Below are positions 4,732-58,351 of a stretch of 64,000 bases of DNA, in pieces (within the stretch, counting starts at the first letter, position 1; each line of letters opens with the position of its first letter). The position numbers and the translations under genes were made by a program. The DNA comes from Bacteroidota bacterium. GTDB lineage: Bacteria > Bacteroidota > Bacteroidia > Flavobacteriales_D > Crocinitomicaceae. The stretch spans positions 1 through 64,000 of the forward strand of contig JAJRQK010000035.1 in NCBI GenBank assembly GCA_024280295.1, written 5' to 3'. Below the pieces are notes generated by a model that saw only the letters and a list, made by a program, of their open reading frames with translations, had not been told where the DNA came from and made no database searches.

Positions 4732-4732
4732 A

Positions 4733-5290
4733 CTACTTTCGAATGATTTGTACATCACCCTTTATTCCAATTTTTATAATTTGTGAAGTCCGTTGACATT
4801 TTTCCTTTAAGCGATCTTTTACAATGTAATTAACTCCAGTTTTTAACTCTTCCTTGATATCTGGATAAGATATTGGAGTTGAATCCCCTGTTAGATTCGC
4901 TGATGTACTTACCAGTGGTTTTCTCATTCCTCTAATTAATTTCATGCAAATTGGATCGGTAGTCACACGAATTCCAACAGATCCATCCTTTGCTAATACG
5001 GATGATGCCAGTCCTTTTGCATTAGGATATATTATCGTTAAGGGTTTCACTGCAAAATCAGCGAGATCGTAACATACCTCTTGAAATTCTGGAATGTAAC
5101 GCTGAAGCATCGGGAATCCATCTACTAAAAGGATGAAACTCTTTTCCTCAGATCGCCCCTTTAGTTCTAAAATTTTCTGACATGCTTCTTCATCAGTAGC
5201 ATCACAACCAATTCCCCAAATAGTGTCGGTAGGGTAGAGGATCGTCCCACCAGAACGTAAAATTTCTATGGCATTTTTTAAATCGATCAT
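4733..5290 (-). CDS. tsaC: threonylcarbamoyl-AMP synthase (Sua5/YrdC/YciO family)
   Basis: A 185-residue YrdC-fold protein: [18 protein letters not shown] near the N-terminus, then [17 protein letters not shown] (the KxR motif that binds substrate) and [12 protein letters not shown]. It makes threonylcarbamoyl-AMP from Thr, bicarbonate and ATP for the t6A37 modification of ANN-decoding tRNAs. It is the short form without the Sua5 C-terminal domain. Its ATG overlaps the trmD stop by four bases (ATGA, 5287-5290), so two tRNA-modification enzymes are co-translated. YciO-like paralogues cannot be fully excluded, but no other copy is in the window. Confidence 0.88.
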
Positions 5291-19297: not shown

Positions 19298-22200
19298 ATG
19301 AATGCTACTAGAACGCTTGTCTTAGCAGGTATTTTGCTATTTATAACGAACTTTTCGATCGCTCAACGTGATAAAGATGGAAGCTATATTGCTCCTGGTG
19401 GGAACACGGTGGTTAATACCTATACATATCTTTCTGGAAATGCAATTGCTGGTTCAAACACACTTACGGTTAGTAGTAATGCGATGGTTGGGGGTGTTTT
19501 CGGTGGCGCTTTAGCTGCTGGGGACTTAATCATGGTCATTCAAATGCAAGGTGTCTCTATGGATATTAATACCACACCAACAGCAGTGTGGGGGGGGAAT
19601 TATACTGTGCCGAATAGTTATGTTATTCCCGATTTAAGTAATTTTGGCGTGAGCCCAGAAAATTGGGGTGGTGTTACTAATTACAATCAATCAGGACTAC
19701 ATGAACGAGTTGAGGTATTGAGTGTTTCTGGAGCAAATACGATTACTTTGAACTGTAATTTAGTAAATAGCTATACTTCTTCTGGACATGTCCAAATTGT
19801 TCGAATTCCACGATTTACGGATTTAACTGTGAATGGGGGCTCTACAATCATTCCAACCCTTTGGAACGGTAATTCTGGTGGAATTGTTGCACTTGAAGTA
19901 AATGGGACATTAACAATAAATGCGGGTGGCTCAATTAGTGCTACCGCTTATGGTTTTAGAGGTGGACAGCTTGATCCTAATAGTTTTACTGCTACGGCAA
20001 ATGTTGCTGAGGTGAGACATTTGGGGTCTTTTGATAACCTAGAAGGCTCTGAAAAAGGCGAAGGAATAGGAGGGTTTTATACGGAATATGACTTGCTTTC
20101 ATCAAGATATGGAATTGGAGCTCCAGCAAATGCAGGAGGAGGAGGAGGATACCAAAATACAGGAGGCGGTGGAGGATCTAACGTAATGGTTGGCGGAGCT
20201 TATACTGGGCAAGGAAATCCACAGGGATTTACAGCAGTTTGGAATCTTGAATCTCCAGCTTTTGGTGGTTCTACATCATCTGGTGGTGGACGTGGTGGAT
20301 ATGCTTATTCTTCAAATGATATAGATGCAACGCTAGTTGGGCCTAGAAATAACCTTTGGGGTGGTGATGGTCGAAAAACAAATGGTGGATTCGGTGGACA
20401 TCCCCTTTTATTCGTTGCTGATAGAGTTTGGTTTGGTGGAGGTGGAGGATCTGGCGATCAAGATAGTGATGAAGGTGGTGCTGGTGGTCGTGGTGGCGGA
20501 CTTGTATTTATGAATCTATATGGAACTATTGTTGGTTCGGGAACAATTGAAGCTATTGGTGAAAACGGACAAAACAGTAACCCAGCAGGACTTGTTGCAA
20601 ATGCAGGAAATCCACAGGTAGGAAATGATGGAGCAGGAGGTGGTGGTGCCGGTGGTTCAATTCACATTGAAAATATTTCGCCTTTCCCAGGTACAATGCT
20701 TTTAGACGTTCATGGTGGTGATGGTGGTAATCAAGATATTGGGTTTTATAATCCCGGACCTCCAATTCCTTCTCAACCAGAAGAAGCAGCAGGCCCTGGT
20801 GGATCAGGATCAGGTGGTTATATCCGAATTTCATCAGGTACTCCAATAAAAAATTTGATAGCTGGTGCTAATGGAACCACCAATTCTTCGCACATGACAG
20901 AATTTCCTCCAAATGGAGCAACGGAAGGTTCGGATGGATTCCCCGTATTACCCGCAAATCCAGTATTTAATATTGCACTCACAGATGTGAGTATTTGTTC
21001 GGGTGCTACTGCAAACTTAGTAGCAGTTGTAACCGGAACGCCTCTTGGAACAGTAACATGGTTCGATGCCATGGTTGGTGGGAGTGTAGTTGCAACTGGA
21101 AATTCATTTACCACACCAACACTTTTTGTAACTACAACTTACTGGGTGGGAGTTTGCCCAGGATCTTTTAGAGAACCTGTAACAGTAACGGTTTTCCCTC
21201 CAGATGACGCTAGTTTTGTTTATACATCTGCCTCATATTGTGTGAATGATCCAGATCCTACTCCAACAATTACTGGTTTAGCTGGCGGAATTTTTTCAAG
21301 TATTCCAGTTGGAGTATCAATTAACGCAGCAACTGGTCAAATTGATGTGAGTGCTTCAACACCTGCAAGCTATACAATCACTTATACTACAAATGGACCT
21401 TGTCCTAATACGAGTAATATAGTGGTGACAATTAGTGCTTTAGATAACGCTAATTTCAATTATGGTGCGGCTGCATACTGTATTGCTGACCCTGATCCAA
21501 CTCCAACTATTACTGGACTTGCAGGTGGTACGTTCTCAAGTGTTCCAGCTGGATTGTCAATTAATGCTGCAACGGGTCAAATTGATGTTAATTTATCGAC
21601 TCCCGCAGCATACACAATCACCTATACTACAAATGGATCTTGCCCTACATCAAGTAATGTTTCTGTAACGATAACTGCACTTGATGATGCTAGTTTCAAT
21701 TATGGTGTAACGTCATATTGTATTGCAGATCCTGACCCTCTGCCTACAATCACAGGTGTTGGTGGAGGAACGTTTACGAGTGTTCCAGCTGGATTGTCAA
21801 TTAATGCTACAACGGGTCAAATTGATGTTAGTTTGTCTACTCCTGCATCCTATACTATTACATATACAACATCTGGAGCTTGTTCCAACTCAAGTAACGT
21901 GGTCGTAACTATCACAGCTTTAGATGATGCGAGTTTTAATTATGCGATGGTCTCATATTGTGTAGATGCATTAGATCCTACGCCGATTATAACAGGTGTT
22001 GTTGGCGGAACGTTTACAAGTGCACCAGTTGGATTGTCAATTAATGCTATAACTGGTCAAGTTGATGTGAGTTTGTCTACTTCTGCGGCATATACCATTA
22101 CGTACACGACTACAGGGGTTTGTGCCAATTCAAGTAATGTAGCGTTGACTATTATTGCTTTAGATGATCCGAGTTTTAGTTTCTCCTCAGCTTCTTATTG

Positions 22201-25200
22201 CATCGATGCACTTGATCCATCACCTACAATTACAGGTGTTGTTGGAGGAATATTTACGAGTGCACCTGCTGGTTTGTCAATCAACTCTACCTCTGGAGTG
22301 ATTGATTTGAGTTTATCTACACCAGCGACCTATACTATCTCTTACACAACTGCTGGAGCTTGTCCAACTTCAAGTAATGTAGCTTTGACAATTGTAGCAT
22401 TAGATGATCCTAGCTTTAGCTACGGTTCACCTAGTTATTGTAGTTCTGGAACAGACCCAACACCTATTATTACTGGATTAGGAGGAGGAACTTTTACGAG
22501 TTCACCTGCTGGACTTTCAATCAACGCTGCATTAGGATTGATTGACGTTAGTTTATCTACTGCATCAGCCTACACGATAACATATTTAACCACTGGTCCT
22601 TGTCCAACTTCAAGTGATTTTGCGGTGACAATAACTGCTTTGGATGATGCAAATTTCAATTATGCTTCGGCTTCTTATTGTGTGAATGCTGTTGATCCAA
22701 TACCAACTATTACAGGAGTTCCTGGTGGGACTTTTGCAAGTGCGCCGGCTGGACTATCAATGAACCCTGCAACTGGTCAAATTGATGTAAGTTTATCTAC
22801 TCCTGGGCCATATACTATTACTTATTCTACTGCTGGAGTTTGTGCAAATTCAAGTAACTTTGCTATTACAATCTCCCCACTTGATGATGCGAACTTCAAC
22901 TATGCATTAGGATCATATTGTGTAAATGCAACTGATCCAACTCCAACAATTACGGGGTTGGTTGGCGGAACATTCACAAGTGCACCTGCTGGATTGTCAA
23001 TAAATGCTGCAACAGGTCAAATTGATGTCGGTTTATCGATGCCTGGACCATATACAATCACTTACATAACATCTGGTATTTGCCCTAATTCGAGTAATGT
23101 CGCAGTAACTATTGATCCTCTTGATGATTCAGCATTCAATTATTCGGCAGCTTCATATTGCGGTAATTCACTCGATCAAATCCCAACAGTTACGGGATTA
23201 AGTGGAGGCACTTTTACGATTGCTCCTGCTGTTGGACTTCCTATCAATTCGATTAATGGTACAATCACTATTACTGGTTCGACACCTGGAATGTACACTA
23301 TAACTTACATGACTTCTGGGCCATGCCCAACTTCCAGTAATGTCGCTATAACTATTGATCCTTTTGATGATGCGACGTTCAATTATTCTTCGGGATCTTA
23401 TTGTGTAAATGGAACTGATCCAACTCCAACAATTACTGGTTTAGTTGGAGGTTCATTTACGAGTGTTCCAGTTGGACTTGTAATTAGTGCTTCTGGGGTT
23501 ATTGATTTGAGTGCATCAGCTCCTGGACCATATACCATTACGTACACAACATCTGGCACTTGTCCAAATACAAGTAATTTCGCAGTAACTATTGATCCAT
23601 TTGATGACGCTAGTTTTAACTTTGGTGGATCAGTATCCTATTGCATGAGTGCAGCAGACCCAATACCAACTATAACAGGCTTGATTGGGGGGGCATTTAC
23701 AAGTGTTCCAGTTGGATTGTCAATGAATCCAGTAACTGGTCAAATTGATGTGAGTGCATCCATGTCTGGTCCTTATACGATTACTTATACAACTTCTGGA
23801 ACGTGCCCAAATTCAAGTAATTTCGCAGTAACTATTGATCCACTTGATGATGCTTCGTTTAGCTATACTGCACCTACTTATTGTGTAGCTGATCCAGATC
23901 CTACGCCAACAATCATAGGACTTGCGGGAGGTTCTTTTACAAGCGCCCCTGTTGGATTAGTAATTAACCCATTAACAGGAGTTATTGATGTAAGTGCTTC
24001 CACTGTTGCAGTCTATACAATCACTTATACAACTTCTGGAACGTGCCCAAGCTCAAATAATGTAACAATTGAAATTTTGGCGGCGGATAATGTTGTGTTT
24101 ACCGCTACACCAACATGTGATGGAGGTATATCATCTGCACCAGTTACTGTTGGAGGAACGTTTACTTTTGGTGTTCTGCCAGTTGATGGTGCTATAATTG
24201 ATCCAGTTACTGGAGTTGTCACTGGAGGTACGGCAGGAACAACATACTCAATCACATACACAACGCTTGGTGCATGTGGTACTGCATCAACAGTAATGGT
24301 TACAGCTCTTTTAAGTCCATTAATTAGCCCTGTTGCAGATGTTGTTGCATGTGATTCTTACACTTTACCTGTAATTATTGGTACTAACTTGAGCGGAACG
24401 GAAGCGTACTATGATGATTCTCAAATTGCTGGGGGGGCTATTATTTCTGGGGCAATTACCTCGACCCAAACCGTCTATATCTATGATGTTAATGCTGGAG
24501 GATGTTCTGACGAAACAAGCTTTGTTGTTACAATCAATGTCTCAGATGATGCAAGTTTTACACTAACAGATTTCTGTGAAGGCGCGACAAATTTGGCTAC
24601 TATAACCGGTACAGTTGGAGGAAGTTTTAGTTTTGTTCCTTCTGTTTCTGATGGAGCAACGATAAATTCTGTAACTGGCGAGATCACAAATGGAGTTTCT
24701 GGAACTACTTATACGATTGAATATTTAACAGTTGGAGTTTGTCCTGCTACATCAACTCAATCGGTCACAGTAAAGACCATTCCATTGGCTCCTGTGATTA
24801 GTTCGGACATAACGTATTGTAGTGACGCACTGTTATCTGATATGACTGCTACAGGTGGATCTGGTGTCCTAAGTTGGTTTGATGATTCTGGATTATCGAA
24901 CCAGATCGGGACGGGTGGAACTCAAACTCCGTTCTCGACGAATGGTGTCACAAGTTATTACGTGAATGAAACCGAAAATGGCTGCACGGGGTCTACGAGT
25001 GTTGTAAATATTACGATTGAAGACTGTGACATACTGATTCCTAGTGCATTTACTCCAGATAATGATGGTGCAAATGATGATTGGGAATTGATGGATATTG
25101 ACTATATTTATCCAAACAACGTTGTGAAGATCTACAACAGATGGGGAAATCTTATTTTCGAATCTGTGCAGGGTGATTATGACAATAACCGCTGGGATGG

Positions 25201-25312
25201 AACATTTAAGGGGAAACCTCTGCCAGTTGCTTCTTATTTTTATATCATTGAACCCAATGCTGATGGTGTTGACGAAATGACAGGAAGCATTACAATTATA
25301 CTTGGAAATTAA
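19298..25312 (+). CDS. giant T9SS type B (gliding-motility C-terminal) repeat protein
   Basis: A 2004-residue secreted protein. Signal peptide: residues 1-22 (ending FSIAQ). Residues 25-555 form a beta-rich region with many glycine runs (GGGGGYQNTGGGGGS and others). An Ig-like domain follows (about 555-635; CSGATANLVAVVTG, VTWFD). Residues 636-1596 are twelve copies of an 80-residue module (SYC..DPTPTITG..GGTFTS.P.GLSINA.TGQIDVS...YTITYTT.G.CP), then two divergent copies, a second Ig-like domain (SWFDDSG) and the type B sorting domain (about 1912-2004; PSAFTPDNDGANDDW, KIYNRWGNLIFES, WDGTFKG). It should be carried by T9SS to the surface or medium, as an adhesin or matrix component. No PorP/SprF-like partner gene adjoins it, though such pairs are common. 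Confidence 0.93.
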   Translation: MNATRTLVLAGILLFITNFSIAQRDKDGSYIAPGGNTVVNTYTYLSGNAIAGSNTLTVSSNAMVGGVFGGALAAGDLIMVIQMQGVSMDINTTPTAVWGGNYTVPNSYVIPDLSNFGVSPENWGGVTNYNQSGLHERVEVLSVSGANTITLNCNLVNSYTSSGHVQIVRIPRFTDLTVNGGSTIIPTLWNGNSGGIVALEVNGTLTINAGGSISATAYGFRGGQLDPNSFTATANVAEVRHLGSFDNLEGSEKGEGIGGFYTEYDLLSSRYGIGAPANAGGGGGYQNTGGGGGSNVMVGGAYTGQGNPQGFTAVWNLESPAFGGSTSSGGGRGGYAYSSNDIDATLVGPRNNLWGGDGRKTNGGFGGHPLLFVADRVWFGGGGGSGDQDSDEGGAGGRGGGLVFMNLYGTIVGSGTIEAIGENGQNSNPAGLVANAGNPQVGNDGAGGGGAGGSIHIENISPFPGTMLLDVHGGDGGNQDIGFYNPGPPIPSQPEEAAGPGGSGSGGYIRISSGTPIKNLIAGANGTTNSSHMTEFPPNGATEGSDGFPVLPANPVFNIALTDVSICSGATANLVAVVTGTPLGTVTWFDAMVGGSVVATGNSFTTPTLFVTTTYWVGVCPGSFREPVTVTVFPPDDASFVYTSASYCVNDPDPTPTITGLAGGIFSSIPVGVSINAATGQIDVSASTPASYTITYTTNGPCPNTSNIVVTISALDNANFNYGAAAYCIADPDPTPTITGLAGGTFSSVPAGLSINAATGQIDVNLSTPAAYTITYTTNGSCPTSSNVSVTITALDDASFNYGVTSYCIADPDPLPTITGVGGGTFTSVPAGLSINATTGQIDVSLSTPASYTITYTTSGACSNSSNVVVTITALDDASFNYAMVSYCVDALDPTPIITGVVGGTFTSAPVGLSINAITGQVDVSLSTSAAYTITYTTTGVCANSSNVALTIIALDDPSFSFSSASYCIDALDPSPTITGVVGGIFTSAPAGLSINSTSGVIDLSLSTPATYTISYTTAGACPTSSNVALTIVALDDPSFSYGSPSYCSSGTDPTPIITGLGGGTFTSSPAGLSINAALGLIDVSLSTASAYTITYLTTGPCPTSSDFAVTITALDDANFNYASASYCVNAVDPIPTITGVPGGTFASAPAGLSMNPATGQIDVSLSTPGPYTITYSTAGVCANSSNFAITISPLDDANFNYALGSYCVNATDPTPTITGLVGGTFTSAPAGLSINAATGQIDVGLSMPGPYTITYITSGICPNSSNVAVTIDPLDDSAFNYSAASYCGNSLDQIPTVTGLSGGTFTIAPAVGLPINSINGTITITGSTPGMYTITYMTSGPCPTSSNVAITIDPFDDATFNYSSGSYCVNGTDPTPTITGLVGGSFTSVPVGLVISASGVIDLSASAPGPYTITYTTSGTCPNTSNFAVTIDPFDDASFNFGGSVSYCMSAADPIPTITGLIGGAFTSVPVGLSMNPVTGQIDVSASMSGPYTITYTTSGTCPNSSNFAVTIDPLDDASFSYTAPTYCVADPDPTPTIIGLAGGSFTSAPVGLVINPLTGVIDVSASTVAVYTITYTTSGTCPSSNNVTIEILAADNVVFTATPTCDGGISSAPVTVGGTFTFGVLPVDGAIIDPVTGVVTGGTAGTTYSITYTTLGACGTASTVMVTALLSPLISPVADVVACDSYTLPVIIGTNLSGTEAYYDDSQIAGGAIISGAITSTQTVYIYDVNAGGCSDETSFVVTINVSDDASFTLTDFCEGATNLATITGTVGGSFSFVPSVSDGATINSVTGEITNGVSGTTYTIEYLTVGVCPATSTQSVTVKTIPLAPVISSDITYCSDALLSDMTATGGSGVLSWFDDSGLSNQIGTGGTQTPFSTNGVTSYYVNETENGCTGSTSVVNITIEDCDILIPSAFTPDNDGANDDWELMDIDYIYPNNVVKIYNRWGNLIFESVQGDYDNNRWDGTFKGKPLPVASYFYIIEPNADGVDEMTGSITIILGN
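20130..20830 (+). repeat. glycine-rich tract in the N-terminal region of the 2004-residue protein
   Basis: Clusters of GGN codons encode runs such as GGGGG, GGGGSG and GGAGGRGGG between short hydrophobic strands. Similar in character to, though less extreme than, the tract at 36285-37190 in the second giant protein. Confidence 0.8.
21203..24085 (+). repeat. twelve tandem 240-bp repeats (80-residue module)
   Basis: Copies 1-8 keep an exact 240-base period (the codons for the SYC motif recur every 240 bases from 21230); copies 9-12 vary by one to two codons. Each copy begins DDASFNY or similar and has two cysteines, in SYC and in GxCP, about 50 residues apart. The same module occurs eight times in the protein at 51015-54926. 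Confidence 0.92.
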
Positions 25313-48782: not shown

Positions 48783-49571
48783 TTAATTCTTCATCACTCG
48801 TAGTAGTGCAAAGCCTGTCGAGAAAATATACATACCTGAACTTAAGTTTTGTAAATCTACTTCAATCTCATTTTTGCCCTTGTTTGTGATAAGTACAAAA
48901 CGTGTGACATCTTGCCCAATACTATTGAATATTTGAAGTGATTCTAGATTATCACCTATTAGAGTTACTGTATGATTTGTCGGATTCGGAAAAGCAACAA
49001 TTTCTGCTATATTATTTTCAAAGTAGACAGGACGGACGTTTGAATAAACATAAGCACCATCAAAATCTGTTTGTTTTAGTCGGTAATAGGATATACCTGG
49101 TAGTGGAGATAGATCAAAGGTGACATAATTTAAGTGCATGACTGAATTTCCTGCGGCATCAATCGTTGCAATTTCTTTCCAGTTGAGTTGTTTTAAGGAA
49201 CGCTCAATAGTGAAATAGTCATTGTTTAATTCAGTGATAGTTTCCCAATTTAATCGAACCTTCCTTTTTTCAGCAGTAGCATCAAAGTTGATCAATTCAA
49301 TCGGTAGAACAACAAGGCAAGAAGCGAAAATAAAATTAGTTCCGCTTCCCGTTGAGCCAAAATAAGCTGTGCTATTACAGTATGACACTTCGGAGAATTT
49401 AGCCCCACTATTTCCTGAAACTGAAGCTTGATATGATACGGTTAAGTTGTTGGAATCGCATAAACTGACTTCAGCATAACTGCTACCATTGCCCACTCCT
49501 CCCTGAAACCAACCTTGTGCTTGTGAGTATTGAGTGATAACCAAAAGTAGTATGATAACAACTTCTCTCAT
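48783..49571 (-). CDS. small T9SS type A sorted protein
   Basis: A 262-residue secreted protein with a signal peptide (MREVVIILLLVITQYSQAQ). The first 90 residues, with four or five cysteines, match no family I know. The centre has LPIELINFDATAEKRKVRLNW and FTIERSLKQLNWKEI, a fibronectin-like spacer often found before the sorting domain, and the end is a type A T9SS domain (EIVAFPNPTNHTVTLIG, LQIFNSIGQDV, VDLQNLSSGMYIF). Last gene of a three-gene operon; its ATG overlaps the stop of the SUMF1-like gene (ATGA, 49568-49571). Confidence 0.82.
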   Translation of the reverse strand: MREVVIILLLVITQYSQAQGWFQGGVGNGSSYAEVSLCDSNNLTVSYQASVSGNSGAKFSEVSYCNSTAYFGSTGSGTNFIFASCLVVLPIELINFDATAEKRKVRLNWETITELNNDYFTIERSLKQLNWKEIATIDAAGNSVMHLNYVTFDLSPLPGISYYRLKQTDFDGAYVYSNVRPVYFENNIAEIVAFPNPTNHTVTLIGDNLESLQIFNSIGQDVTRFVLITNKGKNEIEVDLQNLSSGMYIFSTGFALLRVMKN

Positions 49572-50974
49572 CGAATCCCTCTTCCTCCACGAGGAGCTGA
49601 CCTCAAATAAAAAGTTGTTGAATAGTAATCGATTCTATTCGAGGTGTATAGCTGAACATTCCCAGCTGCATAACTTCCTCCTCGTTCTGTTATTCCTAGG
49701 GATGCGTTTGAAGCAACACTTGGCCAAGTAGGTGGATTTGCATTTCCTGCTGTTGGGGCATTGGTGAGATAACCATCACCATGGGTTGGTGTAAATGAGC
49801 GTCCTTCAAGATGGTACACATTAATACACATCTCTTGAAGATTACCAGTCATCTCCATAACACCATAGTAGGTTGCTCCTGATTGAAGTCTATTTGATGT
49901 TGGTGATCCAGCAAAACCACTCCTCATTGGACCTAATATGATATTGTTATTATAGTTAGCTTTACCTGATCCTATAGGGGCAATCGTTCCATTTGCTTCT
50001 GTTGCTGTACCATCATTTATAACGGAAAGAACATCTGTTATAACATTTGTTCCCCATGCGTATTCGTTTGCAACAGGATTACTTGGTCCACGACATATTT
50101 TTTCATATTCAGTTTCAGTCATTGGTCGTAGGGCTGACCAATCTAGGTAAGCAACTAAATCTTGCCAACTTAACCTACCCATAGCTCGATAGGGTGATAA
50201 AGCAGTGTAGTTTGGCCACGATCCGCCAACATTAATTCGATTGGCTGTTGCAATGAGTACTCTAGCTGAAGCTTGATCCACTGCAAGGGTATTTAAGAAT
50301 GATATCCATTGTCCTTGAGATATTTCATACTTCATTACATACATACTATCATATCCTAAAGGATATGCCGCAGGGATTGAGACTGGAACTGTTGCAGGGA
50401 TTATCGAATTAATATTTCCAGCTGCCGTTCCTTTAGTTAAAGCGCCATCATTTGTAACGAATAGGGGAGAGTTGGTCGTACTCCCATCTTTAAACGAAAA
50501 AGATGAAATACCATCTCCTAAGTAGAATGATCCAGTTGGTATATAGACCATCTCAATACCAAAAACTCTAAAGTCATAGCTTGCATTATTTGCTGGAGTT
50601 GAAATTTTCAAGCGAATAGTGACTGTTGTAATTGATCCACTTCCCACTGAACCTGCTCTAACCATAATTCCTTTGCCGTCCAACAAATAATCATGAATCT
50701 CAAGAGGAACTGCTGCAAAGTGATCCGCATAAGTTGTGCTAAACTCAACATGATTCCATGCACCAGTTGATGCACAGTCACGGTACTTCGCGAATAGATA
50801 TATGGCATCCCAATTAGTTGGTGCAGAATTGGTTCTCCACGAATTATCCCAACTTAACGTAAAAACCAATTCGTTGGAAGCATTAACCGTTGGTATTCCT
50901 ATTTGCAAATTATTAGCAGTTGTGCCAAAGGAAGCCATTAATGTGATGAGAAATATTAATAAATAATGTTTCAT
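49568..50974 (-). CDS. secreted SUMF1/FGE-sulfatase-like domain protein
   Basis: A 468-residue protein with a signal peptide (MKHYLLIFLITLMASFGTTA). Residues 25-145 form a beta domain (SWDNSWRTNSAPTNWDAIYL), and residues 150-468 resemble the formylglycine-generating-enzyme domain (PF03781): VYIPTGSFYLGDG, YVMKYEISQGQWISFLNTL, YRAMGRLSWQDLVAYLDWSA, LRPMTETEYEKICRGP, GVMEMTGNLQEMCIN and ERGGSYA...YLRSAPRGGRGIR. The Cys pair used by true FGE at the C-terminus is not evident, so it is probably a ligand-binding or structural relative. It follows the large T9SS protein after 40 bases. Confidence 0.83.
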   Translation of the reverse strand: MKHYLLIFLITLMASFGTTANNLQIGIPTVNASNELVFTLSWDNSWRTNSAPTNWDAIYLFAKYRDCASTGAWNHVEFSTTYADHFAAVPLEIHDYLLDGKGIMVRAGSVGSGSITTVTIRLKISTPANNASYDFRVFGIEMVYIPTGSFYLGDGISSFSFKDGSTTNSPLFVTNDGALTKGTAAGNINSIIPATVPVSIPAAYPLGYDSMYVMKYEISQGQWISFLNTLAVDQASARVLIATANRINVGGSWPNYTALSPYRAMGRLSWQDLVAYLDWSALRPMTETEYEKICRGPSNPVANEYAWGTNVITDVLSVINDGTATEANGTIAPIGSGKANYNNNIILGPMRSGFAGSPTSNRLQSGATYYGVMEMTGNLQEMCINVYHLEGRSFTPTHGDGYLTNAPTAGNANPPTWPSVASNASLGITERGGSYAAGNVQLYTSNRIDYYSTTFYLRSAPRGGRGIR

Positions 50975-51014
50975 GGAGACTAGTTGTTTTTTGTTTTTAT
51001 TCCAACTTTGAAAA

Positions 51015-54000
51015 TTATTTTTTGATTATCCTCGTTTGATAAATTTCATCGCCAGAGATCATTACTAGAAAATAGATTGCTGGTTTAAGTTCCGAAATAT
51101 CGAGAGTGTTTGTATGCTTTGATTGGTAAACTACTCTACCATTTAGATCCAAAATTTCAATTGAATTGACGATAATTCCGTTAAAATCAATCTTCAAAAG
51201 ATCAATTGCGGGGTTGGGATAGATGCGAATCGTTTCCATTCCATGAAGTGGAACAGCTAAACTTTCTTCGATTGTTACATCAAAAGTAGAACTTGAAGGG
51301 CAATTCCCATTTGTTGTGTAAATAACTTGGTAAGGGCCTCCAATTAGGCTAGCTACTAAATCTATTTCACCAGTTGTTAAGTTAAGGCTTACATTTCCTG
51401 TACTTTCCGAAAATGATCCTCCTGTTAGACCAGTAATAGTTGGAATCGGATTAGAATCTGTACTGAAATAAGTAGACTGATCATAATTAAACGAAGGATC
51501 ATCCATCGCTATGATTTCAATCTGAAAAGTAGAAGAAGCTGAGATGCATCCACCTGATGCTGCTATGAAATTCGTTACTGTATAAATAGTTGGTATACTT
51601 GTCATCGGGTCTATTTCTCCTGTTGAAGGATTGATACTTAACCCAGATGGCGTTGCAGAAAAGACTCCTCCGCTGGTTCCTACTCCAAATTGTGGAAATG
51701 ATGCAAGATCGCTTTTGCAATAAGTGGATTGTACATAAGAGAATGTGGCATCTGGAGAATCAGTGATTACAATGTTGAAGTCCAATGAGTTTGGGCAGTT
51801 TCCATTGGTGAGGTAGGATATTGTATAATTTCCAATTCCACTTGCAGGAATATCAATCTCACCCGTGGATGCATTGATCACAATTCCATTGTTTCCAGAG
51901 AAAACCCCACCATTTAGACCTGATATTGACGGAATAGGGTTAGCTCCAGAAAGACAGAATGTTCCTGATGGATATGAGAATGATGCATCATCTAATTCGT
52001 TAATCGTAATTGAGGAACTCGTGGAGTCAGGACAAATTCCACTTGTTAGGTATTTGATCGTGTAAGTATTAGGTATGCTAGTTGTCAAGTTTAACTCACC
52101 TGTAAGAGGATTAATAACTAATCCAGCTGGAAGCGAAGTGAAAGTACCACCTAGTGTTCCCATTATTGAAGGGACAGTATTCGTTTCACCTTGGCAATAG
52201 TTACTTACTGGATAGCCTACCAGTGCAAAATCCTCAGATGTGATAGTCATACTTATTTGTGATGAAGTTGGGCATACTCCATTCGTTTGGTAGCCAATTT
52301 GGTAAGTGTTTGGGATGCTCAAGGAGAAGTTGATTTCCCCCGTTGAAGGATTGATTGATAGCCCAGCAGGAATTGCCGAGAACATTCCGCCTAAAGTTCC
52401 ACTAATCACAGGGACTGTATTCGCATCATTTTCACAATAATTCAAGGAAGCAAAAGTGAATCCTGCATTGTCAACGGCACTAATAGTAATTGTACCAGTA
52501 ATAGAATCAGGACATATACCATTTGTTAAGTATTTAATAGTGTAAACTGCTGGTGTGCTTATAGAGACATCAATTTCCCCCGTTGAGCTATTGATCACTA
52601 ATCCCATAGGACTCGCCGAAAAAGTACCTCCTATCGTTCCAGAAATCGAAGGAATAGGATCTATTTCATTTTGACAATAGTTGATTGCTGAATATGTTAT
52701 TGAAGCAATATCTCCACCTAAGACATTCATACTTACTTGTGAAGATTCAGAGCAAACTCCATTCGTTTGGTAGTTGACCAAGTAGTTATTTGTTGCACTC
52801 AAGGAGAAGTTGATTTCCCCCGTTGAAGGATTGATTGATAGCCCAGCAGGAGTTGCCGAGAAAGTTCCACCTGCTGTACCTGTAATTACTGGTGATGTAT
52901 TCGACTCATTTTCACAATAATTTATAGAAGTATATGAAAAACTCGCATTTTCTTGTGCCCCTATAGAAAGTCCAAAATCAAGTGTGTCTGGACATGATCC
53001 TCCAGTAATATATGTAATAATATATGGCCCTTGTGTGCTTAGAGACAAATCAATGGTTCCCGATGTAGCATTCATTGTGAGTCCACTTGGTGAAGATGTG
53101 AAATTACCTCCAGCTGCGCCTGTAATAGTTGGTGTTGGATTTATTCCATTTTGACAATAAGTGTTAGCTGTGTAAGAATAGCTAGCATCCTCTTGTGGCT
53201 GTATACTTGTTATGTTGGTCGTAGCAACAGGAATAGAACGACATCCTGTTTGCGTGTCTAAAAGTGATAAATCATAATTGCCATTTCCTTGCGTGAGGTA
53301 AAAATTGTAATCGAGGTCATCAAATGTTTGCTGTACACCATTATAGTACCAATTAAATCTGAAATCTGGTCCAGTATTTAATGATTGTAAATAGCCTTGA
53401 TCATTCAGGCAATTTCCTACAAAATTATTCACGATATAAGTATCTATTGTGCGGTAGCCGTTAAAATTGAAGGCAACATCAACAGTACATCCATTTCCAG
53501 CATCAACTGTCATACCTAAATTTATAGGAGTAGTGATACCATTTCCTCCCCAGATATAAATTGAATCGGCATTAATTCCAAAAGGGTTATTCCACCATGA
53601 ATAAGCAGTAGCATATTCGCTAGAAATGTTAAAAAAGACGGTATCATTAGCACAAACACTATTTGACCAATTTAAACCTGTCATTGTAGCATTAACCTCA
53701 GGAGGAATGCACACACGGTGTGTCATTGTAGAGTCAGCAACTTTAAATGCGGATATGGTAAACGTGTTGTTGTCAGTGAGTCGCATTTTGGGATTACTTG
53801 ACTGAGAATGTGTTAAGTAAGTGAAATCAACCCAGTTATATGAATTGTTAATTAGCTTTCTGCGCTGAACTCGGATGGAGTCACCTGCAAAGGTTGAGCA
53901 TAGATAGAGACTGGTATCACTTCCAAGTTGAATGTCAGTATAAACAATACTAATGGTAGATGACAATTCGTTTCCGACCGCATCAAAAACCTTAATTGAG

Positions 54001-54926
54001 TGATTGTTCATTGCTCGAATATATCTTCCGTCGGAAAAACGCCAGTATTTGAGTCTAGTAGTTGAAAATAATGAAGAAGTGTTCTGGAAATTCACTGTTT
54101 CATTGAGTAGGCCAGAAGCTTTACTATATCGTTGCTTAGAGGTGAAACTATATACTGAAATATTAGCGCCTTCATTTAACAGAACGGCGTCCATATCTCC
54201 TGAAGTTTGTGGAGTTTTTGACCAAGCGAATGCACCAGTAGTGGTGTACTTTATTAGAATGTTAGTTCCTGGAACTCCAATTAAAAGGGCATTCGTCTCT
54301 CCTAAAATATACACGTTACTAGAAGCATCAATTTTCATCTTGTAAGGAATGTCGTCTACAGAGTCTCCTCCATCAAAAGATTTAGCCCAGTCAAATGTAC
54401 CAGTTGTTAAGTATTTTAATACCATGATATTTTTTTCATCCGCACTAACTGCGTTTATACTGTACCCTACTATAAAAACGTCTCCTGTTGTGCGGTTAAC
54501 TTCCATGTCAATTGCTGTAGTAGAAAGAATGGCACTAGAATATTGATTTGTCCACAATAAAGTACCTGTAGGACTGTATTTTTTAACCATTACGGTGGTA
54601 CTGTTTTTAGTATTCATTCCCACATAGATGTTGCCGCTATTATCGTAGTCAACCTTTAAACCGTAGTCACTTCCGATACCTGAATCGTAGGTGTCATTGA
54701 AAACAAGAGTTCCAGTATTGTCGTGTTTTGAAACAAACATGTCTCCATCACTATTTGGTCCCCAAAATGATCCAGTTGCATATACATTACCCGAAGGGTC
54801 AGCGACAGTATGTTTGGGGCCTGTTCCATTAGAATATGTTTCTAATGTTTCCCAAACTTTAGTTGGATTTTGTGAGAACCCTATTACACTTATTACAAGT
54901 GCCACAATGACTAACAAATATTTCAT
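51015..54926 (-). CDS. large T9SS type A protein with propeller repeats and eight 80-residue modules
   Basis: A 1303-residue secreted protein starting MKYLLVIVALVISVIGFSQ at 54926; a 24-codon extension upstream is rejected because it precedes the signal peptide. Residues 20-400 contain SBBP-type propeller repeats (DPSGNVYATGSFWG, DNSGNIYVGMNTK, DASSNVYILGETN). A Cys-containing segment follows to about 575, then eight modules of about 80 residues (about 579-1222) of the same kind as in the 2004-residue protein. The end is a type A sorting domain (IRIYPNPAIDLLKIDFNG, IEILDLNGRVVYQS, LDISELKPAIYFLVM). First gene of an operon with the SUMF1-like and small T9SS genes; two LuxR-type regulators lie just upstream on the same strand. 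Confidence 0.9.
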   Translation of the reverse strand: MKYLLVIVALVISVIGFSQNPTKVWETLETYSNGTGPKHTVADPSGNVYATGSFWGPNSDGDMFVSKHDNTGTLVFNDTYDSGIGSDYGLKVDYDNSGNIYVGMNTKNSTTVMVKKYSPTGTLLWTNQYSSAILSTTAIDMEVNRTTGDVFIVGYSINAVSADEKNIMVLKYLTTGTFDWAKSFDGGDSVDDIPYKMKIDASSNVYILGETNALLIGVPGTNILIKYTTTGAFAWSKTPQTSGDMDAVLLNEGANISVYSFTSKQRYSKASGLLNETVNFQNTSSLFSTTRLKYWRFSDGRYIRAMNNHSIKVFDAVGNELSSTISIVYTDIQLGSDTSLYLCSTFAGDSIRVQRRKLINNSYNWVDFTYLTHSQSSNPKMRLTDNNTFTISAFKVADSTMTHRVCIPPEVNATMTGLNWSNSVCANDTVFFNISSEYATAYSWWNNPFGINADSIYIWGGNGITTPINLGMTVDAGNGCTVDVAFNFNGYRTIDTYIVNNFVGNCLNDQGYLQSLNTGPDFRFNWYYNGVQQTFDDLDYNFYLTQGNGNYDLSLLDTQTGCRSIPVATTNITSIQPQEDASYSYTANTYCQNGINPTPTITGAAGGNFTSSPSGLTMNATSGTIDLSLSTQGPYIITYITGGSCPDTLDFGLSIGAQENASFSYTSINYCENESNTSPVITGTAGGTFSATPAGLSINPSTGEINFSLSATNNYLVNYQTNGVCSESSQVSMNVLGGDIASITYSAINYCQNEIDPIPSISGTIGGTFSASPMGLVINSSTGEIDVSISTPAVYTIKYLTNGICPDSITGTITISAVDNAGFTFASLNYCENDANTVPVISGTLGGMFSAIPAGLSINPSTGEINFSLSIPNTYQIGYQTNGVCPTSSQISMTITSEDFALVGYPVSNYCQGETNTVPSIMGTLGGTFTSLPAGLVINPLTGELNLTTSIPNTYTIKYLTSGICPDSTSSSITINELDDASFSYPSGTFCLSGANPIPSISGLNGGVFSGNNGIVINASTGEIDIPASGIGNYTISYLTNGNCPNSLDFNIVITDSPDATFSYVQSTYCKSDLASFPQFGVGTSGGVFSATPSGLSINPSTGEIDPMTSIPTIYTVTNFIAASGGCISASSTFQIEIIAMDDPSFNYDQSTYFSTDSNPIPTITGLTGGSFSESTGNVSLNLTTGEIDLVASLIGGPYQVIYTTNGNCPSSSTFDVTIEESLAVPLHGMETIRIYPNPAIDLLKIDFNGIIVNSIEILDLNGRVVYQSKHTNTLDISELKPAIYFLVMISGDEIYQTRIIKK
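51261..53192 (-). repeat. eight tandem 80-residue modules
   Basis: Reading on the minus strand, eight copies of about 240 bases encode the module YC...P.ITG..GG.FS..P.GLSIN.STGEI..S...Y.I.Y.TNG.CP. Copies 2 and 4 share long nearly identical stretches (52801-52850 and 52321-52370). Only copy 8 lacks the first Cys (STYF for STYC). Confidence 0.88.
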
Positions 54927-55037
54927 AGATTGTATGTCTTTTATTTGCATACAAAGAACGAGAATGGTCATAGTACTTTTGTCATCAATTCTATCCAATT
55001 TGAGTGAGAGTAGTCGGTTGCGAAGGAATACTGGATG

Positions 55038-55823
55038 CTATACGAGGTTGTACTTCTGAGCAAAATTTGCAGCCTCAGATCTGTTTTTGACAAGTAATTT
55101 CCCATAGATACGTCGACAATAAGTTCGAACAGTTGATAGCGAAATGGACATTTTTTGACTAATTTCTTTGTCCGTCATTCCGATCGATAAATAGGATAAA
55201 ACTTCTAGTTCCTTTTTTGAAAGTTTAACGACCCAATCAGGAATTTCACTTTTATGAGATTTATATTCTAATGGTTTTCTCGCATTTAATTTCTCAAGTT
55301 GATCATGTACTTTTTTAAATGCACTTTCTAACGAATTATATTTTGCGAGGATTTCTTTTTTCTGTTCATTTATTTTTGACTTTTTGTGCCAGTTAATGAC
55401 AAGCTTATAGAGAGCGAAAATGATAACTAGAAGAAAGCATACTGATAAAAACTTGTACTTTTGAATTAAATTCGTGAGATAACTTTGTTTTTTTTTTGCT
55501 TGCTCAATAGTGTGATATGAGTTGGAAATTTTCTCTGTAATTTCTGTAATCCCAGACTCTTGGTTAATTCTTTTTGAACTCTCAGTTAAGTTTAAATTGA
55601 ATAAACTGTCTTTTAATTGAGACCTAATTCGAGCGTAGTATAATGCTTTCTCTTGGTCTCCTTGAATATCATAATTTTCATAAAGAGAATCAATAAGAGT
55701 TAGTTTGGTCTGCAAATTTTCGGTAGTATCGAAGACAGAAATAAGGCTATCTTGCTTTGAATTTGACCAACTAGTCAAAACTGGAAAACTAAGTGTGATT
55801 AAAAATATGAGCCAAATGCGCAT
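55038..55823 (-). CDS. membrane-bound LuxR-type regulator, short form
   Basis: A 261-residue protein: signal sequence or first helix (IWLIFLITLSFPVLTSW), a helical segment without clear TPRs (residues 25-120), a transmembrane helix (FLSVCFLLVIIFALYKLVI), a coiled coil (KINEQKKEILAKYNSLESAF) and a C-terminal LuxR/GerE helix-turn-helix (KLSKKELEVLSYLSIGMTDK and STVRTYCRRIYGKLLVKNR). The sensor part would face the periplasm and the DNA-binding part the cytoplasm. It lies 19 bases after the larger paralogue and 111 bases before the T9SS operon. Confidence 0.83.
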   Translation of the reverse strand: MRIWLIFLITLSFPVLTSWSNSKQDSLISVFDTTENLQTKLTLIDSLYENYDIQGDQEKALYYARIRSQLKDSLFNLNLTESSKRINQESGITEITEKISNSYHTIEQAKKKQSYLTNLIQKYKFLSVCFLLVIIFALYKLVINWHKKSKINEQKKEILAKYNSLESAFKKVHDQLEKLNARKPLEYKSHKSEIPDWVVKLSKKELEVLSYLSIGMTDKEISQKMSISLSTVRTYCRRIYGKLLVKNRSEAANFAQKYNLV

Positions 55824-55842
55824 TTAAGGAAGATTGAGATGG

Positions 55843-57561
55843 CTAAGTTACATCGTTCAAGTCAAAATCACGAATTATCTTGGAAGCTTCCGTTCTGTTC
55901 TTTACATCTAATTTCGAATAAATTCTTGCACAGTGAGAGTTTACTGTTGAGGCTGAGATAAATAATTTTTCTCCAATCCGAATATCTGTCATTCCAAGAC
56001 TCAAGCACGAGAGGATTTCCAGTTCTCTTTTTGAGAGAGATTTAACCTTTTCAGCTAAACTTGAAGATACATTAGAGGTTTGCAATACTTCAAGTTTTTT
56101 TAGGAGTTCTTGATAGTCTGCTTCCAATGATTCGAGATCAACTTGTGCTTTATCTTTTGCTTCTCTCAATTGTTTTCTTTTCTTCGTTTCTTTAAAATAC
56201 GCGAGAAGTAGAAAAACTATAATTGTTCCCAGTCCGATTACTCCGTATAGAATCCAGTTAGATTTTGTTGAGGTCTTCTTATTCTTCTCATTCTCATAGT
56301 TCAATTCGGCTTCTTTTCCTTCTAACTCTTTCAAGCTTTCGTTGTACCTATAAATTGCTTCTTTCATTGCAATTCGTTCAGCCTTCTCAATATATAAGAG
56401 ACTATCTTTAATTAGTTCGTAGCGTTTATTTGTCTCAAGTGCCTTTTCAAATTCACCAGTTGATTCATAGAGATTTGATAGGTTGATCAGCATTGATTTA
56501 TGGATGGTTGGATTTTCGATATACTGTTGTATTGTATATGCTTCTTCTAAAAATAGTTTCGCATTTTCAAAATCCTTTTGTTGGTAGTAAATTAGTCCAA
56601 TAGTACTCGTTGAAATTGCAAATTCGGCTATGGCGTTGATTCGTTCGAATTCAGCTCGGACTTCGATAAGAATGGAAAGTGATCTGTTATAGTCTTTCCT
56701 AGCGTAATAAAAATCTGCTAAATTATACTGTGTTGACAAAAGTTCCTTTTTAAGTCCCAGTTCCTTGTAAATCTTAATTGCCTTGTTATTGTATGTAATC
56801 GCTTCAGTGTCGATGCCTAAGTGATCTTTAATCAGAGCCATACCAGTATATCCTCTTGCAAGACCTTCTGAGTCTTTCGTTTTCATGCTCAATTTAATCG
56901 CTCTTGAGTGATAATAAATTGCACGCTCATAAAACTTGATCTCTGTAAATAAGAAGGCTATATTATTCAGTGCGCTAATCATTAGTGCAGTATCTTTGAT
57001 CTCTTGAAAACACTTAAGTGCACTGATATAATGATCTGTAGCCTGTTCGAAATCTCCAACACTCTTAGTGAAAATTCCCATGTTGTTGTATATAATGGCT
57101 TCATTTTTCGGGAATTCTCCGATGGGTTTCAATGCTTTTCGACAATAAGTTAGTGCTGATTCAAGCTTACCTTCATAATAATAGCTAGTTGCAATGTCCA
57201 TCAAAGATCTTGATATTAACTTTGGTTTTTGAAGCTTTTCGGCAATCTCTACAGATTTTTGAAGCGAATCACGCGCTTCATTGTAATTACCAGCAATCAT
57301 CACTGCATAGCCATAGTAATTTAAGTTCCATGCGTATTTTTCAGGATAGTCATGGCTTCTTAATAGTGTGAAAGCTTGCTCAAAGTACATAATTGAAGCA
57401 TCGAAATCAGTGAAAATTAATTCGCCGCCAAGCTCGGTAAGTGCGTCAATTTTGTCAGGAATGTTCTTCGTTGTTTGAACGATATTTCTTAAGCTATCAA
57501 TATCCGCTCGACTTGAAAAACAGGCTGAAAAAAGAAGAATAGAAAGGACAATCTTTAGCAT
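55843..57561 (-). CDS. membrane-bound TPR-LuxR regulator
   Basis: A 572-residue protein starting MLKIVLSILLFSACFSSRAD at 57561. Residues 25-370 hold about eight TPR units (AWNLNYYGYAVMIAGNYNEA, AIYNNMGIFTKSVGDFEQAT, ALNNIAFLFTEIKFYERAIY), then a transmembrane helix (WILYGVIGLGTIIVFLLLAYF), a coiled coil, and a LuxR HTH (SLSKRELEILSCLSLGMTD, STVNSHCARIYSKLDVKNR). The TPR part should be periplasmic, making this a one-component transmembrane sensor of the type common in Bacteroidota. Paralogous to the next gene through the coiled-coil and HTH region. A promoter box lies four bases upstream of the start. Confidence 0.87.
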   Translation of the reverse strand: MLKIVLSILLFSACFSSRADIDSLRNIVQTTKNIPDKIDALTELGGELIFTDFDASIMYFEQAFTLLRSHDYPEKYAWNLNYYGYAVMIAGNYNEARDSLQKSVEIAEKLQKPKLISRSLMDIATSYYYEGKLESALTYCRKALKPIGEFPKNEAIIYNNMGIFTKSVGDFEQATDHYISALKCFQEIKDTALMISALNNIAFLFTEIKFYERAIYYHSRAIKLSMKTKDSEGLARGYTGMALIKDHLGIDTEAITYNNKAIKIYKELGLKKELLSTQYNLADFYYARKDYNRSLSILIEVRAEFERINAIAEFAISTSTIGLIYYQQKDFENAKLFLEEAYTIQQYIENPTIHKSMLINLSNLYESTGEFEKALETNKRYELIKDSLLYIEKAERIAMKEAIYRYNESLKELEGKEAELNYENEKNKKTSTKSNWILYGVIGLGTIIVFLLLAYFKETKKRKQLREAKDKAQVDLESLEADYQELLKKLEVLQTSNVSSSLAEKVKSLSKRELEILSCLSLGMTDIRIGEKLFISASTVNSHCARIYSKLDVKNRTEASKIIRDFDLNDVT

Positions 57562-57615: not shown

Positions 57616-58263
57616 TCAGCATAAGATCCACGAATGCTTCATCCATCCAAATAGAAGTGGACCAGAAATATAGACTAGAAAAACAGGTAGTAATATAACA
57701 ATTAAGATTCCAATTCCATAACCACCATTTTCTTTTTGTTCAGGGTCGGTTTGCCTAATTTCTTCTTTATCTAGTTCTGACTTATTCCAATTCACTCTAT
57801 TCTGATTATCATATCCTATGAATACTACTTCTTCTATGGGATTTTGAAAGTTATACGCAGCATCTAGGACTAATTTTATACTGTCTAAAGAATGTTGTTG
57901 CGAGAACAATGGATGATTGAGAACAGTATCGGATCCTGCTCTCCAAAGATTATCTTGTTTTCCCCTCTCTATGTGGCTACCATCTAAATCAAAAATTAGT
58001 TGAGGTTGATTAGTAATGCAATATTCACTTGTCACCATAACAGATGTGCCATCTCTTAAAAACTTGACGGTATCCAAAGAAGCTGTTGTTATTTGACGTA
58101 TTGGCATCATTCCAAAGTTCGTTGTAACGCCATCAATAGATTTAACTGAATGAATGGTGTAGCTTGACATGCTCCCGTTGTGAGAACGGTATTCAATAAT
58201 GTCTGTTTGTGAAGTTCCTACGAAAGTGATTATTCCGATTAGAAGTGTGATTGCAAATTTCAT
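57616..58263 (-). CDS. secreted or periplasmic protein with C-terminal membrane helix, unknown
   Basis: A 215-residue protein with a signal peptide (MKFAITLLIGIITFVGTSQ), a soluble region of about 160 residues without recognised domain (IIEYRSHNGSMSSYTIHS, NQPQLIFDLDGSH), and a C-terminal transmembrane helix (GIGILIVILLPVFLVYISG) followed by a short tail ending in Cys. The start at 58263 is preferred; 12 upstream codons do not belong to the signal peptide. I do not recognise the family. Transcribed toward the LuxR pair but 54 bases away. Confidence 0.6.
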   Translation of the reverse strand: MKFAITLLIGIITFVGTSQTDIIEYRSHNGSMSSYTIHSVKSIDGVTTNFGMMPIRQITTASLDTVKFLRDGTSVMVTSEYCITNQPQLIFDLDGSHIERGKQDNLWRAGSDTVLNHPLFSQQHSLDSIKLVLDAAYNFQNPIEEVVFIGYDNQNRVNWNKSELDKEEIRQTDPEQKENGGYGIGILIVILLPVFLVYISGPLLFGWMKHSWILC

Positions 58264-58321
58264 AGTATATAATTGTCTGTGGTGAATGGTACAATACAAA
58301 ATGAAATCCGTTCACCCAAAA

Positions 58322-58351
58322 CAAAAAAGGGACATTCTTTCGAATATCCCT
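58322..58351 (-). terminator. rho-independent terminator of typA
   Basis: On the minus strand: stem AGGGA/TCCCT and ATTC/GAAT separated by one mismatched pair, a GAAA tetraloop, then a run of T (58323-58328 in plus coordinates). It lies 60 bases after the typA stop. Confidence 0.8.

Follow-up and report, generated by a model that had tools for sequence, protein, structure and literature searches.

Two predicted membrane-bound LuxR-type regulators and a conserved candidate activator site beside a block of T9SS cargo genes in a Bacteroidota genome

To our knowledge, how T9SS bacteria choose which surface proteins to make is poorly understood, and a block of five genes in a marine Bacteroidota bacterium raises the question of whether such a choice could be made locally, by regulators encoded next to their targets. 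In the window (the whole stretch of 64,000 nucleotides analysed here), the initial annotation had described a T9SS cargo operon directly downstream of two paralogous sensors and proposed that these control it. All five of the genes it claimed are found, on the minus strand, in the order reg1, reg2, BIG, FGE/SUMF1-like gene and small T9SS gene. The features used below are:

58328..58351, minus strand: terminator-like hairpin in the region that separates a TypA-like gene from the ORF preceding reg1 (scan)
55843..57561, minus strand: reg1; signal peptide, predicted periplasmic TPR array, TM segment, coiled coil and LuxR/NarL HTH (Pfam, hydropathy)
55038..55823, minus strand: reg2, shorter than reg1 and related to it, with a signal peptide, a TPR stub, a TM segment and a LuxR/NarL HTH (Pfam GerE)
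54978..54999, minus strand: candidate activator site ATTGGATAGAATTGATGACAAA, with a 16-bp operator frame at 54982-54997 (cross-species conservation)
54952..54959, minus strand: -7-like box GTTCTTTG, with the operator frame 22 nt upstream
51015..54926, minus strand: BIG, a T9SS cargo protein of 1303 aa with a probable beta-propeller at the N-terminus, ~80-aa repeats and a T9SS tail
49568..50974, minus strand: FGE/SUMF1-like exported protein (PF03781), lacking both the FGE Cys pair and a T9SS tag
48783..49571, minus strand: small T9SS cargo, 262 aa (Por_Secre_tail)

The genes are closely spaced, with gaps of 19 bp between reg1 and reg2, 111 bp between reg2 and BIG (taking ATG 54926 as the BIG start) and 40 bp between BIG and the SUMF1-like gene, whose end overlaps the start of the small T9SS gene by 4 bp. 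A hairpin scan returned a single minus-strand terminator-like hairpin, which lies upstream of the block (58351-58328), while the stretch from reg1 to the last gene has none on this strand; as the scan's total of 7 on both strands is near the 5.7 found in shuffles, the scan is weak evidence about terminators.

Both upstream genes encode LuxR/NarL (GerE) HTH regulators, as judged by C-terminal GerE matches above the Pfam cut-off of 23.5 (60.4 bits in reg1, 57.4 in reg2). In reg1, a 577-aa ORF with a GTG start, TPR repeats (TPR_12, 113.5 bits) lie between the signal peptide and a TM segment at residues 441-459 (Pfam, hydropathy), and the flank of this segment on the HTH side is richer in K/R; we predict a topology with the sensor part in the periplasm and the HTH in the cytoplasm for both proteins. 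The TM segment of reg2 is at residues 120-138, preceded by ~95 residues that include one TPR-like stretch, read by eye, and reg2 gives no Pfam TPR match. The two share 33-34% identity over ~220 C-terminal residues, and reg2 carries a TPR stub rather than a full sensor. Kinase and receiver families are absent among the Pfam matches listed for reg1 (17) and reg2 (11). A regulator search gave 19 full-length matches, spread over 10 of 60 genomes including that of the window.

Two of the three downstream proteins are T9SS cargo by sequence, having a signal peptide and a C-terminal sorting domain (Por_Secre_tail, Pfam cut-off 27: 41.6 bits in BIG, 40.4 in the small protein, 48783-49571). The third, the SUMF1-like protein, has a signal-peptide-like start and an extra N-terminal domain and lacks a T9SS tag, and the idea of a T9SS cargo operon holds for its first and last genes only. 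The N-terminus of BIG is probably a beta-propeller; it is called probable only, because the model, in which groups of four strands recur, has a pLDDT of 52 and its structure matches, WD40 and lectin propellers included, reach a TM of ~0.3. The SBBP propeller match of BIG is sub-threshold (Pfam, 16.8, cut-off 20.5).

The SUMF1-like protein matches FGE-sulfatase (PF03781) at 40.3 bits against a Pfam cut-off of 23.3, and a profile of eight homologues matches FGE/SUMF1 chains at about 2e-12. Its sequence kinship is to FGE-type proteins only: the FGE-like domain is common to FGE/SUMF1, SUMF2, CalU17, EgtB and PorK/GldK, the last matching only at E 0.003-0.004. Unlike FGE, it combines the extra N-terminal domain with the loss of the Cys pair suspected at the outset and confirmed here: Cys residues occur only at 67, 294 and 383, and by eye none of the eight aligned sequences has a Cys pair in the C-terminal region, where we take the FGE active-site pair to lie. 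Its reading as an FGE was rejected on these residues. The protein may bind ligands in a C-type-lectin-like manner; a single-sequence structure prediction (mean pLDDT 32) was too low to use. A role as a DGR variable protein was rejected, there being no repeat of the gene within the window: blastn of its 3' 633 bp against the window returned no more than the self-match and one of 24 bp (E 0.4). A PHROGs search with the SUMF1-like and small T9SS proteins gave no match.

Relatives bear out part of the proposed conserved neighbourhood. Homologues of BIG occur in genomes G019 (78%) and G003 (62%) and homologues of reg2 in G003 (47%), beside BIG, and G028 (46%), beside a BIG remnant, so that reg2-BIG is kept in G003 and reg1-reg2-BIG (remnant) in G028; in G019 no regulators adjoin BIG, and the SUMF1-like/small-T9SS pair follows BIG in none of the three genomes. 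A SUMF1-like gene followed by a T9SS-tagged gene recurs in three of the seven other genomes with a SUMF1 match (G028, G013, G035), and there the pair stands apart from BIG and reg1/reg2. The five genes are thus not one syntenic unit; the block splits into two modules, reg2-BIG and the SUMF1-like/T9SS pair.

Within the reg2-BIG gap lies the 22-bp candidate site ATTGGATAGAATTGATGACAAA, which is conserved at five places in four species. In the window, G003 and G028 it occupies the reg2-BIG gap; the remaining two places are in G019, one upstream of BIG and the other between a reg1 homologue and a different T9SS gene. Neither adjacency nor reg2 is required, since in G019 both BIG and the site occur with no regulators next to them and reg2 is absent. 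The site is near-unique: its 18-bp core GATAGAATTGATGACAAA has exact copies at only three positions in 60 genomes, all belonging to this system, and the one copy within two mismatches in the whole window genome is the gap site itself. Among five one-mismatch copies, two are the G003 and G028 gaps, two lie inside other reading frames (G007, G018) and one is upstream of an unrelated gene (G011). In a public collection covering 84,980 species, the 21-bp pattern TTSGWTAGAATTGATGACAAA occurs at five places, four of which belong to this system (two reg2-BIG gaps and, in one further genome, a BIG promoter with no regulators beside it and a gap between the reg1 homologue and a different T9SS gene) and the fifth of which is probably a chance match. 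Few species carry the window-type site. Autoregulation was considered and dropped: the 54-bp gap ahead of reg1, searched with margins, offers no match to the core with fewer than seven mismatches.

The same arrangement recurs across the wider regulator family, for which we assembled 38 TPR-TM-LuxR regulators from the host's order (37 by one search, plus the reg2 of G003). These mostly precede an exported gene: the +1 gene is a non-regulator in 36 of 38 cases and co-directional in 30, and of those 30 genes 27 encode at least 120 aa, 25 of the 27 having a crude signal peptide, against 85/200 distant genes (Fisher 4.6e-7). T9SS-tagged genes are also enriched at positions +1 to +4 (22/132 versus 9/193 for genes more than four genes away; Fisher 4e-4), a secondary result because a gene close to a regulator pair enters the count twice and related loci cannot be treated as independent. 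Many of the regulators carry, instead of the window-type site, the palindrome TCAYCC-N4-GGRTGA, which is present exactly in 14/63 regulator-flanking gaps and 0/222 other gaps, the palindrome having been derived from some of the gaps counted; all 14 exact copies within the 582 kb examined are regulator-flanking. Fifteen of the 38 regulators have no palindrome in a flanking gap at two mismatches or fewer, and the window site itself is not a perfect palindrome. Operator type agrees with regulator clade: the four types need three changes on the regulator tree, the minimum, and 6 to 9 in 500 label shuffles.

Promoter geometry is likewise fixed across the family. The -7 promoter consensus is TAnnTTTG (as given in the available parts of PMC7366714 and PMC2483708). 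Scored over 19 aligned sites, this box peaks 22 nt after the operator (4.79/6; 0/1000 shuffles reach the peak), the distance being 22 nt at most sites and 23 nt in two, and 12 of the 14 exact palindromes have 5 or 6 of 6 box positions at 22 nt. Among 23 held-out sites, 10 have at least 5/6 at a gap of 22, and any other gap from 10 to 39 has at most one such site. A clear box is lacking at two of the palindromic sites, L097 and L102. At window-type sites the distance is 22-23 nt (23 in G003 and G028), and the window's own box, GTTCTTTG, is poor, with 4/6 consensus positions.

These observations support the initial proposal of local control by the two sensors, through a near-unique conserved gap site, a family-wide association of regulator, operator and exported gene, and a fixed promoter geometry. 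We consider it probable (roughly 0.7), reading from sequence, that reg1 and reg2 are membrane-bound one-component activators of the BIG-SUMF1-small T9SS operon acting through the gap site. The periplasmic TPR domain, full in reg1 and a stub in reg2, would sense an envelope signal, which one TM helix and a coiled coil would pass on as a change in the dimer state of the cytoplasmic LuxR/NarL-type HTH, reg1 and reg2 possibly dimerising with each other. The HTH would then bind the 22-bp site, which sits roughly at the position of a -33 element with the -7-like box 22 nt further on, and would recruit RNA polymerase to a predicted transcription start, from which all three operon genes, BIG and the SUMF1-like/small-T9SS pair, would be transcribed.

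Two other accounts of the site would change this reading. It could be read by a different transcription factor or by an alternative sigma factor, reg1 and reg2 being neighbours for another reason; 42 genomes carry 86 palindromes, of which 51 fall in the 21 genomes that give no TPR-LuxR match, and as some of these palindromes adjoin ordinary LuxR-type genes (LuxR response regulators, HTH-only genes), other LuxR proteins probably do read the palindrome, and BIG in G019 keeps a window-type site with no regulator adjacent. Against this, the window-type site hardly occurs outside genomes and positions tied to reg1/reg2 homologues, operator type follows regulator clade, and an alternative sigma factor does not readily explain a standard TAnnTTTG box at a fixed distance; we judge this account unlikely. 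That reg1 and reg2 are repressors, a bound dimer over the promoter blocking RNA polymerase until the signal releases it, is more improbable still: a site this near the -7 box would suit repression equally, but the near-constant distance, with the same peak in held-out sites, is what activator-polymerase contact would be expected to give, and by eye the 19 aligned sites have no TTTG at the usual -33 distance.

The extent of the operon is a separate matter, on which the activator reading does not depend. BIG could be the only ancestral target, with the SUMF1-like/small-T9SS pair a separate cassette that landed downstream of it and is transcribed by read-through or from its own promoter, and here we find the balance even. 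The pair is missing after BIG in G019 and G003 and lies elsewhere in G013, G035 and G028 (contig C48), in the last flanked by homologues of two genes, 3835-4731 and 4733-5290, that are direct neighbours in the window. It also has regulator-type neighbours of other kinds: in G031 a LuxR response regulator directly upstream, in G054 a TPR protein upstream at a distance of two called genes, and in G013 a cut ORF resembling the start of a TPR sensor. In the window itself, given the 40-bp gap to BIG and no terminator found on that strand, co-transcription of the pair with BIG stays likely.

If reg1 and reg2 are such activators, they show how one protein can do the work of a two-component switch for a surface structure. 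A family of regulators that lie beside genes for secreted proteins, with an operator and promoter geometry that are defined and predictable, would make target genes readable from sequence in uncultured species. A broader proposal, which we advance tentatively and hold doubtful, is that a regulator family of the host's order fuses a FimS-type TPR sensor directly to a LuxR-type output, giving each surface-protein locus one local switch with its own operator; the long and short sensors of the window would act jointly on an asymmetric site, and the TPR domain may keep watch, in the periplasm, on the proteins that the operon exports, which would make cargo synthesis follow export. Literature searches among open-licence papers gave none whose title or opening abstract lines deal with TPR-TM-LuxR regulators of T9SS genes.

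Known systems resemble this arrangement in part. CadC/ToxR-type regulators are likewise one-component transmembrane activators; they have an N-terminal winged HTH and a C-terminal sensor, the reverse of the order in reg1 and reg2, whose HTH is of LuxR type. In the FimS/FimR system, FimR also has a LuxR-type HTH. SusR of Bacteroides thetaiotaomicron is a membrane regulator with periplasmic signal binding and a C-terminal DNA-binding domain that activates nearby surface-protein operons, and its predicted sites consist of direct repeats spaced by 67 or 77 bp, whereas the reg2-BIG gap site is compact (PMC3878776, available part); reg1 is not a member of the SusR-like regulators, scoring 29 bits against the NCBIfam cut-off of 480. 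FimS of Porphyromonas gingivalis is described in the accessible text of PMC11053733 as an inner-membrane protein with a periplasmic TPR sensor that controls FimA fimbriae, and the NCBIfam FimS model NF053520 matches reg1 over residues 7-203 at 110 bits, against a cut-off of 600. The likeness lies in the predicted periplasmic TPR sensor of reg1, of which reg2 has a stub only, and in the surface-structure genes nearby. FimS is a histidine kinase with a separate response regulator (same source), whereas reg1 and reg2 carry the HTH themselves, with no kinase or receiver match; by analogy, they are best read as one-component counterparts of FimS/FimR.

The initial annotation placed two regulators next to a set of surface-protein genes, and that neighbourhood is real: all of its genes were found in order on the minus strand, where transcription runs from a TypA-like gene (named by eye from its sequence) past a hairpin and a 227-aa ORF into the regulators and the genes behind them. 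Gene starts are our own ORF calls.

58351-58328, minus strand: terminator-like hairpin between the TypA-like gene and the 227-aa ORF
57616-58299, minus strand: 227-aa ORF upstream of reg1, with a signal peptide and a C-terminal TM
55843-57561, minus strand: reg1, membrane LuxR-type regulator
55038-55823, minus strand: reg2, membrane LuxR-type regulator
51015-54926, minus strand: BIG, 1303-aa T9SS cargo
49568-50974, minus strand: SUMF1-like gene
48783-49571, minus strand: small T9SS gene

This layout is best read, from sequence, as a putative one-component switch that would act locally on a surface operon. Periplasmic sensor parts had been ascribed to both regulators, which fits reg1, a protein with a signal peptide, TPR repeats, a single TM and a C-terminal GerE HTH; reg2 has the same HTH and, before the TM, only a TPR-like stub. 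An HTH lying inside would fit the excess of K/R after the TM over that before it (7 vs 4 in reg1, 4 vs 3 in reg2), agreement for reg2 being weak. T9SS sorting domains occur in BIG and in the last gene, and the SUMF1-like protein lacks one. The 227-aa ORF has no Pfam or NCBIfam match, and no counterpart upstream of reg1 in the related genome G028.

The neighbourhood is conserved in part, with reg2 next to BIG or its remnant in two relatives. Full-length homologues of BIG occur in G019 (78%) and G003 (62%); G028 retains a 95-codon remnant. In G003 BIG is directly preceded by reg2, where the contig starts inside reg2 and reg1 is therefore outside view, and G028 has the order reg1-reg2-BIG(remnant), with an in-frame stop in reg1. 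In G019, which yielded no reg2, BIG has no adjacent regulator. With matches in 8 of 60 related genomes, the window's own included, the SUMF1-like gene is sporadic. A T9SS-tagged gene comes after it in G028 (contig C48), G013 and G035, distant from BIG and reg1/reg2; the pair was not seen in G009, G015, G031 or G054, two of which are cut by contig ends. Because several genomes are incomplete metagenome assemblies, absent genes may be absent sequence.

The SUMF1-like part is best described as a passenger whose role is uncertain. A profile of eight homologues matched FGE/SUMF1 chains at about 2e-12; its matches to CalU17, EgtB and SUMF2 were weaker, and PorK/GldK came in at about 0.004. As had been proposed, the Cys pair of true formylglycine enzymes is missing, by eye in all eight aligned sequences. 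Structure prediction of the protein yielded no fold. The SUMF1-like/T9SS pair seems to be a cassette that moves between sites, since in G028 (L069:7596-10502) it lies between homologues of two genes that adjoin in the window (4731-4733). G031 has a LuxR response regulator immediately upstream of its SUMF1-like gene. In G054 a TPR protein stands two called genes upstream, and in G013 the start of a TPR-sensor-like ORF, interrupted by the contig end, lies nearby; such neighbours (L070:2185-4514, L072, L071:2-301) may represent a second kind of local control.

Alignment of the gaps yielded one block, ATTGG[AT]TAGAATTGATGACAAA, common to the window (candidate activator site, 54978-54999, between reg2 and BIG), G003 and G028, and found upstream of BIG in G019. 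There, the form ATTCGATAGAATTGATGACAAA also lies in the gap that separates a reg1 homologue from an unrelated T9SS gene, and this presence at both loci ties the regulator locus to the unlinked BIG. The 18-bp core has three exact copies across 60 genomes. The 21-bp pattern occurs at five places in genome_contigs, a count that may omit the window's own genome: one each in G028 and G003, two in G019, and one in a Chloroflexi contig that is probably a chance match. By eye, the BIG leader (54926-54960) holds an inverted repeat, TTGTATG...CATACAA, retained in G019; G003 and G028 have another at about the same position.

Gaps of other regulator subgroups have in common a palindrome, TCAYCC-N4-GGRTGA. 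Across the window and 36 loci, with gaps under 30 bp excluded, it is exact in 14/63 regulator-flanking gaps vs 0/222 others, and present with at most two mismatches in 23/63 vs 2/222; held-out tests matter here because the palindrome was derived from some of the gaps counted. In 42 genomes it has 86 copies (reversed control, 9), 14 of them the exact regulator-flanking sites. An exclusive tie to the TPR-TM-LuxR family, that of reg1 and reg2, is opposed by the 51 copies in 21 genomes without a TPR-LuxR match, the other 35 being in 21 genomes with one. At three loci of genomes without such a match (L177, L179, L180), the palindrome recurs next to LuxR response regulators and HTH-only genes of 60-65 aa, with the same distance to the -7 box.

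That distance is 22 nt. LuxR-type activators are often positioned near -42. Across 19 aligned sites (14 palindromes, five window-type), the -7 box score peaks at 22 nt, with 4.79 of 6 consensus positions, a value reached by 0/1000 shuffles; 12 of the 14 palindromes score 5 or 6, and those of L097 and L102 show no clear box. Among window-type sites, the G019 regulator site scores 5/6 at 22 nt, G003 and G028 5/6 at 23 nt, and the window and G019-BIG sites only 4/6 at 22 nt. At 23 held-out sites from freshly fetched loci, several of them upstream of exported genes or beside LuxR-type genes, at least 5/6 was found at gap 22 in ten, and in no more than one site for any other gap between 10 and 39; at least 4/6 at gap 22 was reached by 11/14 sites outside called reading frames and 3/9 inside. 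The consensus, TAnnTTTG, appears in published accounts (PMC7366714, PMC2483708).

A family profile built on 12 regulators, using the 260 residues at the C-terminus of each, recovered 19 full-length regulators in 10/60 relatives. Searches scoring six candidates per genome, whose counts are thus lower bounds, gave at least 37 regulators in at least 20/399 genomes of the order (E 1e-28) and, in a sample of 395 genomes from across the phylum, a match in the window's own alone; that genome is counted throughout. For the 37 plus reg2 of G003 (n = 38), the next gene is a non-regulator in 36 cases and co-directional in 30/36. Of the co-directional genes, 27/30 encode at least 120 aa, and 25/27 of these vs 85/200 distant genes carry a signal peptide (Fisher 4.6e-7) by a crude rule that some membrane proteins also pass. 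One further locus of the window's genome (L081:5319-13755) comprises a TPR-LuxR regulator, a canonical palindrome, a 504-aa exported protein, three collagen proteins (Lcl_C above the Pfam cut-off in 2/3) and a short T9SS-tagged gene. A further observation (window 19298-25312; L082:9248-11926) is a 2004-aa protein that has repeat modules in common with BIG at about 47% identity. It has a relative, at 78% over 712 residues, encoded on C35, a contig of the window's genome, within a few genes of another TPR-LuxR regulator.

Operator type changes three times on the regulator tree, the minimum for four types, and six to nine times in 500 label shuffles, on rows that are dependent because reg1-like and reg2-like rows have common gaps and relatives a common history. 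Labels covered 32/38 regulators, the six without a clear type being dropped, and were hand-set after the gaps had been seen, with variants of up to two mismatches counted as palindrome. The putative one-component switch is best read as a new variant, intermediate between FimS/FimR and SusR.
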